A DNA stretch of 41,143 nt, taken from Chthonomonas sp. (GTDB taxonomy: Bacteria > Armatimonadota > Fimbriimonadia > Fimbriimonadales > Fimbriimonadaceae). Position numbers and translations under genes: made by a program. The notes beneath the pieces are model-generated. The model had not been told where the DNA came from. It searched no databases and saw only the letters and a list, made by a program, of their open reading frames with translations. This document shows positions 7,419-41,143 of the stretch, in pieces (the first letter of the stretch is position 1; every line of letters starts with the position of its first letter). The stretch covers positions 1 through 41,143 of the forward strand of contig JAEURP010000016.1 in NCBI GenBank assembly GCA_016788585.1. Direction: 5' to 3'.

Positions 7419-8079
7419 AACACTGGCAGTGTTCAGCAAAGAAATGCGCTCGGAATGGCGTTCCCGTCAAGGCTTTCTCGCAGGTGGGTTGTTTAGCGTT
7501 GTCGCGGTCGTCGCGATGGCGTTTGCGGGCATCAACGGTCGCCCCACGCCAACGCTACAGGCGGGCATGTTTACGGTCGTATTGTTGTTTGCCGCTTGTA
7601 TCACGTTGCCAAGGGTTTTTCTCGTCGAGGACGAGCAACGCACGATCGACCTACTCCGCCTCCTCGCCCGCCCCGAGGCGGCGTTCCTAGGGAAATTTGG
7701 TGCTTGCAAACTCCAGATTCTCGTAACCGCCGCGATCCTCGCCAGCTTTTACATTCTCCTTAGCGGGGCATCCGTTGCGAGCCCCATCATGCTCATCGCC
7801 GCTCTCGCCCTCGAATCCGTGACCCTCGCTGCAACTCTTTCTATCGTCGGAGTATTGGTTTCCGGAGCTCGCAATCGCTGGGTCCTCGCCGCCGCCGTCG
7901 GCCTCCCCCTCCTGCTCCCCCAAGCCACCCTCAGCATCGGCGCACTGCGTTTCGCCTTCGGCGAAGGCTCCCAAACCTCCGCCCTCCAAAATCTCGGCGG
8001 CCTCGGCCTGTTCGCCATCGCCATGATCAGCTTCGGCCCGGTCTTGGCGAATGCGATGTGGAGGCTGGAAAGGGGCTGA
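7399..8079 (+). CDS. ccmB: Haem exporter membrane subunit
   Basis: 226 residues from ATG 7399, which follows AAGGAG at 7382-7387. It is a membrane protein with about six hydrophobic segments, the first near residues 26-47. The EDEQRTIDLLRLLARPEAAFLGK stretch after the second segment matches CcmB (where it reads ...GTLELLLLSP..). CcmB is the permease partner of CcmA. The start overlaps ccmA by 20 bases. The stop codon (TGA 8077-8079) lies inside a GGCTGAT heptamer, the first unit of the dispersed repeat that fills the spacer to ccmC. Confidence 0.85.
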   Translation: MPSLWAETLAVFSKEMRSEWRSRQGFLAGGLFSVVAVVAMAFAGINGRPTPTLQAGMFTVVLLFAACITLPRVFLVEDEQRTIDLLRLLARPEAAFLGKFGACKLQILVTAAILASFYILLSGASVASPIMLIAALALESVTLAATLSIVGVLVSGARNRWVLAAAVGLPLLLPQATLSIGALRFAFGEGSQTSALQNLGGLGLFAIAMISFGPVLANAMWRLERG

Positions 8080-8160
8080 TGGCTGATGGTCTATGGTCTA
8101 TGGTCGACGTCCTAGCCCTTAGCCATTAGCCGTCAGCACTCAGCCCTCAGCCTTCGACCA
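8074..8160. repeat. Heptamer repeat element between ccmB and ccmC
   Basis: Head-to-tail heptamers GGCTGAT, GGCTGAT, GGTCTAT, GGTCTAT start at 8074 inside the end of ccmB. They are followed by a block of inverted variants (AGCCATTAGCCGTCAGC and similar). The element can fold back on itself. The ccmC promoter lies just beyond it. Confidence 0.75.
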
Positions 8161-8166
8161 ACCAAG

Positions 8167-8938: not shown

Positions 8939-10326
8939 CGTCCGCCGAGCTCACCGCCCTCCTGCGCGATTGCCCGCTCATCGCGAGCGCCCAAGCCTCC
9001 CCCGGCCCCCTGCAAGACCCCGATACCCTCGTCCGCATTGCCCAAGCCTCGATGCAAGAAGGCGTCAAGGTCATCCGCCTTGAAGGCACAGAAATGGCCG
9101 GCCCGGGTCGAGAGAAAATCCGAACACCGAACACCGAAAACCGAACACCAGTAACCATAGGCCTCATCAAAAAGCACTACCCAGGTACCGACGTGTACAT
9201 CACTCCGACGTCGGTCGAAGTGGATGCTTTGCTCGCCGCTGGCTGCGAGGTCATCGGCCTCGAAGGCAGCTCCCGCCCCCGACACAACGGTGACAAGTTC
9301 GAAGACTTAGTAGCGCGCATCCACGCGGGCGGCGCCATGGTCATGGCCGACTGCGACACGCCCGAGTCGGTGGCGCAATCGGTAGCCGCTGGCGTTGAAC
9401 TTATCGGCACAACCCTCGCCGGCTACACCGAAGCTCGTCCCATGAGCGTCGGCCCGGACTTCGACATGCTCCGCCAAGCCATCGCCCTCGCCCCCGGTCG
9501 CGTGATCGCCGAGGGCCGCTATGCCGAACCTTGGCAAGCCCAAGCCGCTCTCGCGATGGGCGCGATCGGCGTCACTATTGGCGCGGCGCTCAATGACATC
9601 GTGCGTCTGACTCAGAACTTCGTCCGCGCGATGCAGCCCTATCACGGGCCAGTCGGCGCTGTAGATATCGGCGGCACGTGGATACGCTTCGCAGTCTTCC
9701 AAGATGGCGAGCTCACCCATATCATTCGCGAACCCTTGCCCCAAGATCGCCTTGGCTGGATCGCCGCTCGCCTCGCCGAGAGCGGCGTCAAGCGTCTCGG
9801 CATCAGCACCGGCGGCACGGTTCACGACAACGTCGTCACCGAAGCCAGCGACCTCATTCCCGGCTATGTCGGCACCAAATTCGAGTTCCCCGGCGTCGAG
9901 GTCTTCGCGCTTAACGACGGCCTCGCCACCGCCTGGGCGCATGGCCTGCACTATGGCGGCCAGCGTGTCGCCACTCTGGCTATCGGCACCGGTTTAGGAT
10001 TTGGCATCGTGGATCGCGGCCGCCTTTTGATGGGCCGCAATGGCGAGTATCCGAGGCTCAACAACCGCGCCTTCTCCGGCGGCGGGACCCTGGAAGAGGC
10101 GGTGGGTGGCGGATTTCGCGACGACTCCCCCCTAACCCCCCTCACAAGTGCGGGGGGGATTGACGAGGCAGTTCGCCTGATCCAAGAGCTCTACTATCCC
10201 GATGTCATCGTGCGGTGCGGCGGCGTCGGCCTCGCCAACGACATTGCGGGAACCGTTCCCTCTCCCTTCGGCGAGAATGCTGGGCTAATGGGCGCGGCGA
10301 TGCTGGCGAAGTGGCCGATGGCATAA
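8935..10326 (+). CDS. Fusion of ManNAc-6-P epimerase (NanE) and ROK sugar kinase (NanK)
   Basis: 463 residues. Residues 1 to about 235 are a NanE TIM barrel: GVKVIRLEG, GLIKKHY with the catalytic lysine, the YITPT strand, MADCDT, GTTLAGYT, and the end VIAEGRY...GAIGVTIGAAL. Residues 240-463 are a ROK kinase: VDIGGTWIRFAVF phosphate loop, STGG, ALNDGLATAW with the catalytic aspartate, and AIGTGLGFG. Together they would phosphorylate ManNAc and epimerise ManNAc-6-P to GlcNAc-6-P. The usual ROK zinc site (CxCGxxGCxE) is absent. Residues about 59-72 and 397-409 are encoded by dispersed-repeat DNA (9119-9150 and 10124-10162). The start overlaps ccmD. Confidence 0.88.
   Translation: MTSAELTALLRDCPLIASAQASPGPLQDPDTLVRIAQASMQEGVKVIRLEGTEMAGPGREKIRTPNTENRTPVTIGLIKKHYPGTDVYITPTSVEVDALLAAGCEVIGLEGSSRPRHNGDKFEDLVARIHAGGAMVMADCDTPESVAQSVAAGVELIGTTLAGYTEARPMSVGPDFDMLRQAIALAPGRVIAEGRYAEPWQAQAALAMGAIGVTIGAALNDIVRLTQNFVRAMQPYHGPVGAVDIGGTWIRFAVFQDGELTHIIREPLPQDRLGWIAARLAESGVKRLGISTGGTVHDNVVTEASDLIPGYVGTKFEFPGVEVFALNDGLATAWAHGLHYGGQRVATLAIGTGLGFGIVDRGRLLMGRNGEYPRLNNRAFSGGGTLEEAVGGGFRDDSPLTPLTSAGGIDEAVRLIQELYYPDVIVRCGGVGLANDIAGTVPSPFGENAGLMGAAMLAKWPMA
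9119..9150. repeat. CGAACAC-type repeat inside the nanE domain
   Basis: Three CCGAACACC-like units in a row fall within the coding sequence. They give the odd residues IRTPNTENRTP between the second and third strands of the barrel, where NanE proteins normally have a short loop. Confidence 0.65.
10124..10162. repeat. C-run/G-run repeat inside the ROK domain
   Basis: A CCCCCCTAACCCCCCTC run followed by GCGGGGGGGA can pair over about 7 bp. It encodes DSPLTPLTSAGG. Similar C-run/G-run pieces are intergenic at 29890-29935 and 34678-34710. Confidence 0.55.
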
Positions 10327-20943: not shown

Positions 20944-21360
20944 ATGCTGAAAGAATTCAGGGAGTTCGCCCTTGGCGGCAATCTATTGGATGTCGGAATT
21001 GGCTTCGTCATTGGAGCGGCCACTGCGGCCTTCGTTGGTTCATTCACGACCAATCTGGTCACACCGTGGCTCGGACTCGCCGGAGGGGGAAACATGGGCA
21101 GCCTGTTTGCCGTGCTCAAAGCAGGGAAGTCCGGGGCCGCAAGCTACCCAACGCCTGCAGCGGCAACTGCCGATGGCGCGGTGATCTTGCCTTGGGGAGC
21201 GTTTGCCGATGAGTTCGTCAAGTTCTTGCTTATCATGTTCGTGATGTTCCTCATTGTGAAGATGGCGAACAAGTTCAAGAAGCAAGAAGAAGCGGCTCCG
21301 GCTGGCCCGACTGAGGTCGAGTTGCTTACCGAAATTCGGGATGCGTTGAAGAAGGTCTGA
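20944..21360 (+). CDS. mscL: Large-conductance mechanosensitive channel
   Basis: 138 residues from ATG 20944. MLKEFREFALGGNLLDVGIGFVIGAA is the MscL N-terminal amphipathic helix and first transmembrane gate helix. The second membrane helix is FVKFLLIMFVMFLIVKMAN, and the C-terminal helix (VELLTEIRDALKK) is typical. The periplasmic loop is longer and Ala/Gly/Pro-rich. The channel opens under membrane tension during osmotic downshock. The stop TGA overlaps the start of a heptamer repeat element. Confidence 0.95.
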   Translation: MLKEFREFALGGNLLDVGIGFVIGAATAAFVGSFTTNLVTPWLGLAGGGNMGSLFAVLKAGKSGAASYPTPAAATADGAVILPWGAFADEFVKFLLIMFVMFLIVKMANKFKKQEEAAPAGPTEVELLTEIRDALKKV

Positions 21361-21427
21361 TGGTCTATGGCTGATAGCTGAGGGCTGATTGCCTTAAGCC
21401 ATTAGCCATTAGCTATCGACCAATAGA
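21358..21427. repeat. Heptamer fold-back repeat after mscL
   Basis: GGTCTAT/GGCTGAT-type units run right from the mscL stop codon, and inverted variants (AGCCATTAGCCATTAGCTATCGACC) follow, so the element can form a hairpin. It is the same family as at 8074, 32325, 35223 and 41011. Confidence 0.7.
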
Positions 21428-21541: not shown

Positions 21542-21559
21542 AAGTGATTATACCCTCGG

Positions 21560-21665
21560 GTTCGTTGGGTTGGTTAGGATAGTTGGGGTTCGTTTGGATT
21601 GGTTCGGATTGGCTGACCTAACCAAACCTAACCAACCCTAACAAAACCAAGCCAATCCGAACCAA
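21560..21665. repeat. GGTT/GGATT-type inverted repeat
   Basis: A 16-bp perfect inverted repeat (TTGGTTCGGATTGGCT at 21599-21614; complement at 21650-21665) encloses CCTAACC units. The left flank is more of the same motif (GGGTTGGTTAGG). It lies between the initiator tRNA and the oppA-like gene. Confidence 0.8.
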
Positions 21666-21693
21666 GCTACGGGGTACAACTACATCTAGGCAA

Positions 21694-29083: not shown

Positions 29084-29785
29084 CTACTTTCGGCTCGCTA
29101 GGGTTGCGTACTGCAAGTACCTGAAGTCGTGAAATTTGCCGCCGAAGAGGGCGTTGACGAGGGCGTATTTGCGGGAGACGCGGGGGTTGATGCCTTCGAT
29201 GAGGTCGACTTTGAACCCATTTTCTTCGTGCAGGCGGATGATGCTTTTGCGCGTGAAGAAGCGAAGGTGGGTGGCGTCGAGGGTGCCGGCGGGGACGTAT
29301 TGCCAGTCTTGCAGGCGCAGGATGTCGTGGTACATGACCGGCCAATAGAGGATGTTGGGGATCGAGGAGAGGACTTTGCCGTTCTCGCTGAGGAGGTCGT
29401 GGCATGCGCGAAGGGCCGCGCCGGGGTCCACAAGGTGCTCGAGTACGTCGTTGAAGCTGATGAGGTCGAACTTCTGGCCCTGCAGCTCAGGGATGCCGGG
29501 CTGAAAGACGCCTTCGATGGCTTTATCGAGGACTTGGGCGGCGGCGGTGACGGACTCGTGGTCGGGCTCGACGCCCCAGACCTCGGCGACGCCCTTTGAC
29601 TTGAGATGCGCGCCGAATGCGCCGCGTCCACAGCCGACATCGAGGGCTTTTTTGATGTTTTGGGGGATGTAAGGGTCGAGCTCTGGGCGCGGGTTGCTGT
29701 AGTAGGTCTCGTCCTTGGCGGCGTATTGCTGGCTCAGGGTGTCGTATTCGGCCACGGGATAGTTTAGCTGGACATTGCTGGACAT
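29084..29785 (-). CDS. Class I SAM-dependent methyltransferase
   Basis: 233 residues, UbiG/COQ3-like type. Motif I ALDVGCGRGAFGAHL (near residue 47) is followed by WGVEPD, with the acidic ribose-binding residue, then FDLISFNDVLEHLVDP and a C-terminal GKVLSSIPNI strand. The RFFTRKSIIRLHEENGF segment is usual in polysaccharide- or lipid-linked methyltransferases. The start codon and the first residues (MSSNVQ) are encoded by GGACATTGCT repeat units that continue upstream, so the N-terminus is repeat-derived. Confidence 0.85.
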   Translation of the reverse strand: MSSNVQLNYPVAEYDTLSQQYAAKDETYYSNPRPELDPYIPQNIKKALDVGCGRGAFGAHLKSKGVAEVWGVEPDHESVTAAAQVLDKAIEGVFQPGIPELQGQKFDLISFNDVLEHLVDPGAALRACHDLLSENGKVLSSIPNILYWPVMYHDILRLQDWQYVPAGTLDATHLRFFTRKSIIRLHEENGFKVDLIEGINPRVSRKYALVNALFGGKFHDFRYLQYATLASRK

Positions 29786-29811
29786 TGAGGGACGGTTGAG
29801 GGACGGTTGCT
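29764..29811. repeat. GGACATTGCT/GGGACGGTTGA repeat
   Basis: Units GCTGGACATT, GCTGGACATT, GAGGGACGGTT, GAGGGACGG run in series over the start codon of the methyltransferase gene. The same unit type occurs at 20268-20312 and inverted at 20490-20536. Confidence 0.7.
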
Positions 29812-29824
29812 TCGTTCTTGATGA

Positions 29825-29935
29825 GTTTGGAGTTCAGAGTTCTGAGTTTAGAGTTGCGCTAACCGCTCTCTCGTTCCTAGGAGAGGTGGGCATCCCCCTG
29901 TCACTCCGTGACATCCCCCCTGCAAGCAGGGGGAA
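29825..29935. repeat. AGAGTTCA units and C-run/G-run hairpin
   Basis: Octamer-like units (GAGTTTGGAGTTCAGAGTTC) at 29830-29858 are followed by CCCCCTG/CAGGGGG inverted pieces (29893-29932). The last piece abuts the TATAAT box of the next gene. Confidence 0.6.
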
Positions 29936-32324: not shown

Positions 32325-32445
32325 TCTATGGCTGATGGCTTATGGCTTTTTTCTTATGGGGGTGTGGTCAGTGAGTCAGTGAGTCAGTGAGTCGGTCAGT
32401 CAGTGATGGACTTGCCATCAGCCATAGACCATTAGCCATCAGTCT
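32325..32445. repeat. Heptamer fold-back element with GTCAGTGA array inside
   Basis: TCTATGGCTGATGGC (32325-32339) and its perfect complement (32414-32428) enclose three GTCAGTGA octamers (32367-32390) and further GTCG/GTCA tetramers to 32406. The right arm continues with CCATTAGCCATCAG. Confidence 0.8.
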
Positions 32446-35183: not shown

Positions 35184-35437
35184 GTGAGTGTCTCGTGAGG
35201 CATGATGCTACCTTATCTCGGAGGTCTATGGTCTATGGCTGTTGGTCGATGTCGATAACTGACGGTCTATGGTCTATGGTGTATGGCTGATGACCCATGG
35301 CCTTGGATAAACCCGGTAACACCGGTAAGTAAGAAACGTAGCCAATCGCCATCGTCCATAGACCATCAGCTATCAGCCATCAGCCATAGACCATAGACCA
35401 TCGACCATCGACCATAAACAAATTCTTGCAATTTCCC

Positions 35438-39846: not shown

Positions 39847-40992
39847 CTAGCTCTTTACGAGTTCGCGTAGGTCTTCGTCGTTGATCTCGTCCTTGCGGTC
39901 GGCGGCGTCGAGGAAGCGCTGATAGACTTCTTCGAAGCGGTCGGTGGCGAAGTCGAAGCCTAGCTCCATGAGTCGGTGCTTGAGGCCGTGGCGACCGGAG
40001 CGCGCAGTGAGCACAATTGAACTCTCCTCTGCGCCGACGAGATGAGGATCGATGATCTCGTAGGTCGAGCGCTCTTTGAGGACGCCGTCTTGGTGGATGC
40101 CGCTGCTGTGGGCATAGGCATTCGCGCCGACGACGGCCTTATTGCGCTGGACGACCATGCCGGTGAGTTGGCTCACGAGGCGGCTGATGGGCACGAGCTT
40201 GTTCAGAACGATGTTGCTTTCGAGGCCAAAGAAGTCCTTGCGAATGTGCAGCGCACAGGCGACCTCTTCGAGCGACGTATTGCCGGCCCGCTCGCCGATG
40301 CCGTTGATTGTGACTTCGACCTGCCTCGCGCCACCAATGACGCCGCCGAGCGTATTGGCAGTCGCCATGCCGAGGTCATTGTGGCAGTGGCAGCTTAGGA
40401 TGGCCTTATCCGAGTTCGGCACGTTCGATTTGATGCCCGCCATGAGGTCGCGGTACTCGGTGGGGAAGGTGTAGCCGGTGGTATCGGGCACGTTGATCGT
40501 GGTCGCACCGGCGGCAATGACGGCTTCGACGACTTGGTAGACATACTCTCGGTCGGCCCGGCCCGAGTCTTCCATGAAGTACTCGATGTTGTCGGTGAAC
40601 TGGCGTGCGAGTTTGACGGCATTAACCCCGGTTTCGAGGGCTTGTTCGCGGGTCATGCGGAGTTTGTACTGGAGGTGGTTCTCGCTGACGCCGAGACCGG
40701 TGTGAATACGTCGGCTCTCGGCGGGAGCGAGGGCTTCGGCCGCGACCTCAATGTCCTTGTCTCGGGCTCGAGTGAGTCCGCAAATGGTCACGCCCTTGAT
40801 CTCCTTGGCGAGGGTGTTCACGCTCTCAAAGTCGCCGGGCGAGCTGATTGGGAAGCCGGCTTCGATGATGTCGACGCCCAGGTCGGCGAGCGCATGCCCG
40901 ATCTGCAGCTTCTCCTCCATGTTGAGGTGAACGCCAGGAGACTGCTCCCCATCGCGCAGGGTCGTGTCGAAGAAAATCACGCGGTCGGACAT
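39847..40992 (-). CDS. leuA: 2-isopropylmalate synthase, short form
   Basis: 381 residues. It condenses acetyl-CoA with 2-oxoisovalerate, the first step of leucine synthesis. The barrel has FDTTLRDGEQSPG (8-20), the metal-binding HCHNDLGMA, and NGIGERAGNTSLEE. The HSSGIHQDG and VLTARSGRHGLKHRL motifs of the linker region are also present. It ends shortly after, so the C-terminal regulatory LeuA dimer domain (about 130 residues in the 510-residue form) is missing. Leucine inhibition through that domain is therefore not expected. A related citramalate or homocitrate synthase is a weaker alternative. ATG 40992 lies 8 bases after CATAAT. Confidence 0.9.
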   Translation of the reverse strand: MSDRVIFFDTTLRDGEQSPGVHLNMEEKLQIGHALADLGVDIIEAGFPISSPGDFESVNTLAKEIKGVTICGLTRARDKDIEVAAEALAPAESRRIHTGLGVSENHLQYKLRMTREQALETGVNAVKLARQFTDNIEYFMEDSGRADREYVYQVVEAVIAAGATTINVPDTTGYTFPTEYRDLMAGIKSNVPNSDKAILSCHCHNDLGMATANTLGGVIGGARQVEVTINGIGERAGNTSLEEVACALHIRKDFFGLESNIVLNKLVPISRLVSQLTGMVVQRNKAVVGANAYAHSSGIHQDGVLKERSTYEIIDPHLVGAEESSIVLTARSGRHGLKHRLMELGFDFATDRFEEVYQRFLDAADRKDEINDEDLRELVKS

Positions 40993-41000
40993 TATTGTTT

Positions 41001-41006
41001 ATTATG
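41001..41006 (-). promoter_or_regulatory. -10 box of leuA
   Basis: CATAAT on the minus strand ends 8 bases before ATG 40992. The -35 position falls inside the heptamer array; with an 18-base spacer it reads TAGACC. Confidence 0.5.
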
Positions 41007-41010
41007 GTGC

Positions 41011-41143
41011 GGTCTATGGTCTATGGTCTATGGTCTATGGTCTATGGTCTATGGTCTATGGTCTATGGTCTATGGTCTATGGTCTATGGTCTATGGTCTA
41101 TGGTCTATGGTCTATGGTCTATGGTCTATGGTCTATGGTCTAT
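41011..41143. repeat. (GGTCTAT)19 perfect heptamer array
   Basis: 133 bases made of exactly 19 copies of GGTCTAT without a single mismatch, running off the right end of the window. It starts 19 bases upstream of the leuA start codon. The single-unit form of the same heptamer occurs in several other spacers. Confidence 0.97.

Follow-up and report, generated by a model that had tools for sequence, protein, structure and literature searches.

Heptameric repeats, IVP genes and related systems

In the literature that we searched, tandem heptamers and the IVP protein family are treated separately and are joined in a single observation, in Coxiella burnetii (PMC4990558). The intervening sequence (IVS) of the Coxiella 23S rRNA carries GACAGAT heptamers just before the S23p ORF, in two or three copies depending on the strain, and it was called a selfish element (PMC4990558). 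Heptameric intergenic repeats have been described as GGGAATC in Xanthomonas and GGGGAYT in Nostoc, and 186 GGGAATC arrays with 70 cases of inverted pairs were reported for Xanthomonas campestris (PMC4692102); the repeat of the Beggiatoaceae is TAACTGA (PMC4679880). Term searches of these two papers found no mention of a link to IVP. Two other systems are close to the locus described here, namely REPIN/RAYT (PMC3116915), in which dispersed intergenic hairpins share a lineage-specific word with one cognate gene framed by the same sequences, and the diversity-generating retroelements, whose protein Avd has a four-helix-bundle fold homologous to IVP (PMC10053308).

Here we analysed a stretch of 41,143 bases (the window), which is the whole of contig C24 in a 27-contig, 2.38-Mb metagenome-assembled genome (MAG), and found that the (GGTCTAT)19 array at its end forms the downstream arm of an element with the structure inverted heptads–IVP–(ATAGACC)19. 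Like the rRNA IVS, this element is an IVP ORF bounded by inverted sequences, but it is intergenic, carries a tandem heptad array as each of its arms, with 19 perfect units in one of them, and is accompanied by hairpins without IVP throughout the genome. Its site between leuA and glgP lies outside any 23S rRNA gene. In the STRR-type and other heptamer families, imperfect tandem heptamers also occupy many intergenic sites, often as inverted pairs, whereas the word of the present arrays goes with one IVP lineage. The likeness to REPIN/RAYT lies in the dispersed hairpins and the framed gene, but the gene within its own arms is PF05635 only and not a RAYT transposase of the Y1 tyrosine type. REPs are 20–40 bp long and RAYT has a nuclease domain, in contrast to tandem arrays of 7–8 bp units and a four-helix bundle. 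Unlike a diversity-generating retroelement, the element has no reverse transcriptase, TR or VR beside it, and the single RVT_1 match of the genome is on contig C11, away from the element on C18 and C24.

The array and the contig ends

Tandem Repeats Finder placed (GGTCTAT)19 on the plus strand at 41011–41143 with period 7, 19.0 copies, 100% matches and no indels, which confirmed the 19 identical heptamers of the sequence-only reading and moved the start ten bases on from position 41001. Two-unit GGTCTAT matches numbered 27 in the window, compared with a mean of 0.06 after shuffling. Eighteen bases (40993–41010) separate the array from the leuA ATG (40990–40992, minus strand). On the minus strand, the sense of both IVP and leuA, the feature at 41011–41143 reads (ATAGACC)19; it reaches the contig end and is continued by bases 1–136 of contig C18 (locus L009).

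Because the end of the window is also the end of C24, 19 is only the assembled number of units. In the same MAG, contig C18 opens with TGC-GGTCTTT-(GGTCTAT)18 followed by TTGATAG, and its overlap of 136 bases with TGC-(GGTCTAT)19 of C24 contains a single mismatch. The array is therefore likely to have about 19 units, although it may be longer than the assembler could span. The two contigs were taken as adjacent because leuA and glgP are divergent neighbours in two congeners. The array terminates both contigs and their overlap contains a mismatch, as might be expected if it were a chimeric or collapsed contig end, but the congener gene order accounts for both flanks, and shorter arrays of the GGTCTAT word sit inside contigs. 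We therefore consider an assembly artefact highly improbable; the array itself is real, and only its unit number is in doubt.

The window has prepilin-like genes, as fits Armatimonadota, and for an IVP of a relative in the same family the closest named records were from Fimbriimonadaceae. (GGTCTAT)3 was absent from the 100 relatives searched. At a strict threshold, only two period-7 arrays were found in 314 kb sampled from the rest of the genome, so such arrays do not characterise its intergenic DNA in general. The recent origin that had been read from the perfect identity of the units was supported, since the array is absent at the orthologous site of both close congeners, G001 and G004. A viral origin was also considered and rejected: neither a relative of the IVP protein nor (GGTCTAT)4 was found in IMG/VR.

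An IVP element between leuA and glgP

The order on C18 is array, IVP gene, inverted heptads, glgP. The IVP gene (L009:133–546, minus strand of C18) is intact and encodes 137 aa, a full-length four-helix-bundle protein of the 23S-rRNA-intervening (IVP) family PF05635/TIGR02436, with an E value of 2.4e-33 for PF05635 and a TIGR02436 score over the cut-off. Its TAG stop is part of the first downstream unit. Beyond its start, at about L009:592–619 and before glgP, are degenerate units (ACCATCGACCATAGGCCATCGACCATCG) of the GGTCGAT/GGCCTAT type, which are inverted relative to the downstream array. In an rRNA IVS, complementary ends form a stem that RNase III cuts. When the whole element was folded, the inverted arms paired in the predicted structure, but the fold as a whole had z = −1.1.

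In the congeners G004 and G001, whose LeuA is 96% identical, leuA and glgP are divergent and roughly 130–150 bp apart, and the gap contains neither the repeats nor the IVP element. The same gap in the present species holds an extra block made up of heptads, IVP gene and array. Since C18 joins array, IVP gene and inverted heptads to glgP, the neighbour of leuA in the congeners, the array forms the 3′ arm of this IVP element. That it is a device of leuA, a possible switch in the sequence-only reading, is not supported. The element would have inserted between the divergent genes after the split from the congeners and would have replaced about 90 bp, including the leuA −35. Comparison of the sites revealed neither a transposition event nor a target-site duplication or exact junction, and the intergenic sequences have diverged too far from those of the congeners for duplications and junctions to be visible. 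As a whole, we assign a probability of about 0.7 to the explanation that the array is an arm of an inserted IVP element and that any effect on leuA is incidental.

The leuA promoter

leuA (39847–40992, minus strand), the host gene adjoining the element, encodes a 2-isopropylmalate synthase of 381 aa without the regulatory domain. By comparison with relatives, most of which have GTATAAT, its −10 is CATAAT (41001–41006, minus strand). Since the sequence upstream is all array, the best candidate for a −35 is TAGACC in the third unit (41025–41030, minus strand); this −35-like hexamer, assigned by spacing, would be supplied by the array. The minus strand thus reads TAGACC, an 18-nt spacer and CATAAT, with a fixed 14 bp of array between the two hexamers. 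The array does occupy the −35 position, as had been noticed from the sequence alone, and TAGACC replaces the −35 while a −10 stays.

A phase-variable leuA promoter switch, which that reading had proposed, is weakly supported and seems to us improbable. A perfect array in the −35 region is likely to vary in length, and this speaks for a switch. But in a periodic array anchored at its promoter-proximal end, gain or loss of units keeps TAGACC-18-CATAAT whatever the length, and a spacing switch is not expected; in phase-variable promoters with simple sequence repeats (SSRs), the unit number alters the −35/−10 spacing or the frame, and here it alters neither. The array also belongs to an IVP element, and elements of the same architecture adjoin unrelated genes. 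Array length could affect leuA only through a site upstream or through transcripts that run on from the IVP gene, and any such effect would be a side effect of the element landing on the promoter. The short LeuA had been cited as lacking its feedback domain; the domain is indeed missing, but this is unrelated to the array, because in most relatives the match is about 380 residues long, which makes it the rule in the family. If the IVP explanation holds, an array next to a metabolic gene should not be called a phase-variation switch before an IVP neighbour has been looked for.

GTATAAT lies only about 8–25 bp before the ATG in many relatives (L041–L059), and leuA may be partly leaderless.

Inverted arms around IVP genes in many phyla

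To survey arrays around IVP genes, 80 IVP loci, 32 of them from Mesorhizobium, were gathered by protein similarity alone, and arrays with at least 24/28 matches were counted within 150 bp of the IVP ORF and further out. Period 7–8 arrays numbered 76 per 23.8 kb beside IVP and 6 per 282.6 kb further out, which means that they are about 150-fold denser beside the gene. Arrays on both sides were found in 43 of the 80 loci, and 42 of these pairs were inverted; 34 of 48 loci outside Mesorhizobium had at least one array, and 16 of the 80 had no clear arms. The set was extended to 129 with loci from the order of the source genome and from seven further genomes. Arms of the same period on both sides were present in 76 of these 129 loci, in many phyla, and were inverted in all 76, with a period of mostly 7 or 8 bp. 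The arrays of L212 and L344 were direct and not inverted. Most upstream arrays end 0–20 bp ahead of the IVP start codon, and the downstream array often runs over the stop codon.

Thus, inverted arms appear as a general design of IVP loci, which suggests overlooked selfish or mobile DNA and not a leucine switch. On plasmid 2 of Azospirillum lipoferum, an IVP gene with inverted heptad arms lies inside an apparent 23S rRNA sequence, identified by our own reading of the flanks. Two cyanobacterial plasmids (L344, L346) have an IVP gene between cas6 and cas4, a third has one between genes for ribonucleotide reductase, and 18 IVP genes were listed in a survey of cas loci (PMC3936711). Such positions are compatible with insertion.

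The repeat word follows the IVP protein

A scan with the GGYYNAT word alone found arrays at 2 of 30 IVP loci, and a scan open to every period revealed a separate word for each IVP. About 40 words were present among 91 loci with a clear word (41 classes, one of which is a run of N). The word was identical in 96–99% of pairs with at least 80% protein identity and in about 0.1% of pairs below 40%, and none of 21 within-genome IVP pairs had a common word. It follows that the word goes with the IVP protein and not with the genome. The IVPs of Mesorhizobium, in lineages A, B and C and with words such as TAGGCAG and TAGCGAA, support this coupling. Within the source genome, most IVP genes have arms, each with its own word: GGGGTGT at L080, GGGTCTC at L084, GGTTTCA at L094, a 10–11-mer at L091 and GGTCTAT on C18. 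Word and protein may also co-vary by joint vertical descent without recognition.

The coupling extends to repeats away from the gene. (TAGGCAR)3 had 29–107 matches in each of the six genomes with that IVP word and was absent from all nine genomes whose IVP has another word, and one complete Mesorhizobium chromosome with two IVP genes has seven further TAGGCAG hairpins without IVP. These results bear on ordinary microsatellite slippage, by which heptamer arrays would arise at random in intergenic DNA, unlinked to IVP. Several bacteria do have an excess of heptamer SSRs (PMC4692102), and 19 perfect units must come from an expansion of the slippage type, but slippage alone leaves the roughly 150-fold enrichment beside IVP, the constant inversion, the tie between word and protein lineage and the restriction of (TAGGCAR)3 to genomes with the cognate IVP word unexplained, and we regard it as very unlikely.

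Hairpins without IVP in the source genome

GGYYNAT triplets gave 104 matches in the source genome, 0 with the reversed control and 0–3 in congeners. The matches are at more than 10 intergenic places and mostly form hairpins of the type (GGYYNAT)n–short loop–(ATNRRCC)n. Three IVP-less inverted heptad hairpins of this family are in the window: at 8072–8163, where the corresponding site of G004 has only unrelated sequence; at 21355–21425 (GGTCTATGGCTGATAGCTGAGGGCTGAT...AAGCCATTAGCCATTAGCTATCGACC); and at 35220–35419. Four hairpins of the genome were folded, and three had z values of −3.3 to −4.3 below shuffles, the fourth −1.8. The sites orthologous to the L103 and L010 hairpins are empty in G004, and the L099 site is common to both genomes. 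The solo family mixes GGTCNAT and GGCTNAT words, while the arms of the C18 IVP gene carry mainly GGTCNAT.

Possible mechanism and wider meaning

From sequence comparison, we infer that IVP elements are mobile and that the IVP protein binds the repeats. The protein, of a family of pentameric four-helix bundles, would recognise its word in single-stranded DNA or RNA, with several units bound per ring, and its binding would maintain or spread the arms. The protein XCC0516 (structure 2gsc, E 8e-20) of Xanthomonas campestris, the species with the GGGAATC arrays, is made up of five assembled four-helix bundles according to the title of its paper. With five subunits in the ring and a repeat unit every 7 bases, single-stranded arms might be bound multivalently. 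TRAP, which wraps RNA, offers an analogy for such an IVP ring on its arms. The copy with IVP would be the autonomous form and the hairpins without IVP its passive derivatives, as REPINs are to RAYT, and the perfect identity of one arm could reflect recent slippage expansion.

No known catalytic motif was found in IVP. A reverse transcriptase acting in trans was considered and rejected: RVT_1 was not detected in 8 of the 14 genomes searched, and 7 of those 8 carry IVP genes (G001, G004, G008, G151, G152, G154 and G155, G001 and G004 being incomplete genomes), which makes it unlikely that a reverse transcriptase is an obligatory partner.

Autoregulation without mobility is a possible alternative, to which we give a minority weight. 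The arrays would then be multimeric sites on the IVP mRNA through which a ring-shaped IVP controls its own translation, and the solo hairpins would be targets elsewhere. The position of upstream arrays, mostly 0–20 bp before the IVP start, and of downstream arrays, often over the stop, fits this, and in Beggiatoaceae the TAACTGA heptads are directly before start codons (PMC4679880). But autoregulation leaves the inverted downstream arm, the IVP-less hairpins with empty congener sites and the IVP within rRNA unexplained.

More tentatively, and at somewhat less than even odds, IVP proteins may be the cognate factors of a very widespread class of mobile elements with inverted tandem 7–8-mer ends, each IVP ring reading its own word, and the rRNA IVS, the cyanobacterial STRR and the heptamers of Xanthomonas and Beggiatoaceae may be its products. 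If this is true, a very common orphan gene family (IVP/S23/TIGR02436) would gain a role, the origin of the rRNA intervening sequences would be joined to the unexplained heptamers of cyanobacteria, xanthomonads and Beggiatoaceae, and each IVP protein would be expected to bind the word of its own arms. The rRNA IVS elements are already known; the rule of arms around IVP did not appear in the literature searched, subscription papers being outside its scope, and its novelty is not certain.

Other repeats in the source genome

At 29767–29860 of the window, GCTGGACATTGAGGGACGGTTGCT, which is also in the upstream arm of the IVP gene L091 on contig C22, is followed by an array of GAGTTYR heptads; 29767–29809 and that arm have a stretch of 24 bases in common. 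Contig C22 has two IVP genes, L089 and L091 (positions 37996 and 43628), which are 83% identical and 5.6 kb apart, with arms recognisable in one and none in the other, a possible duplication. An inverted 10-mer array of the TTGGTTCGGA / TTGGTTAGGT type forms a hairpin at 21550–21667 of the window, and its word resembles the arms of the IVP genes L068 (G008) and L070 (G004). Short arrays of the 7-mer ACCGAAC and the 8-mer GTCAGTGA are at 9115–9151 and 32364–32406 of the window, respectively.
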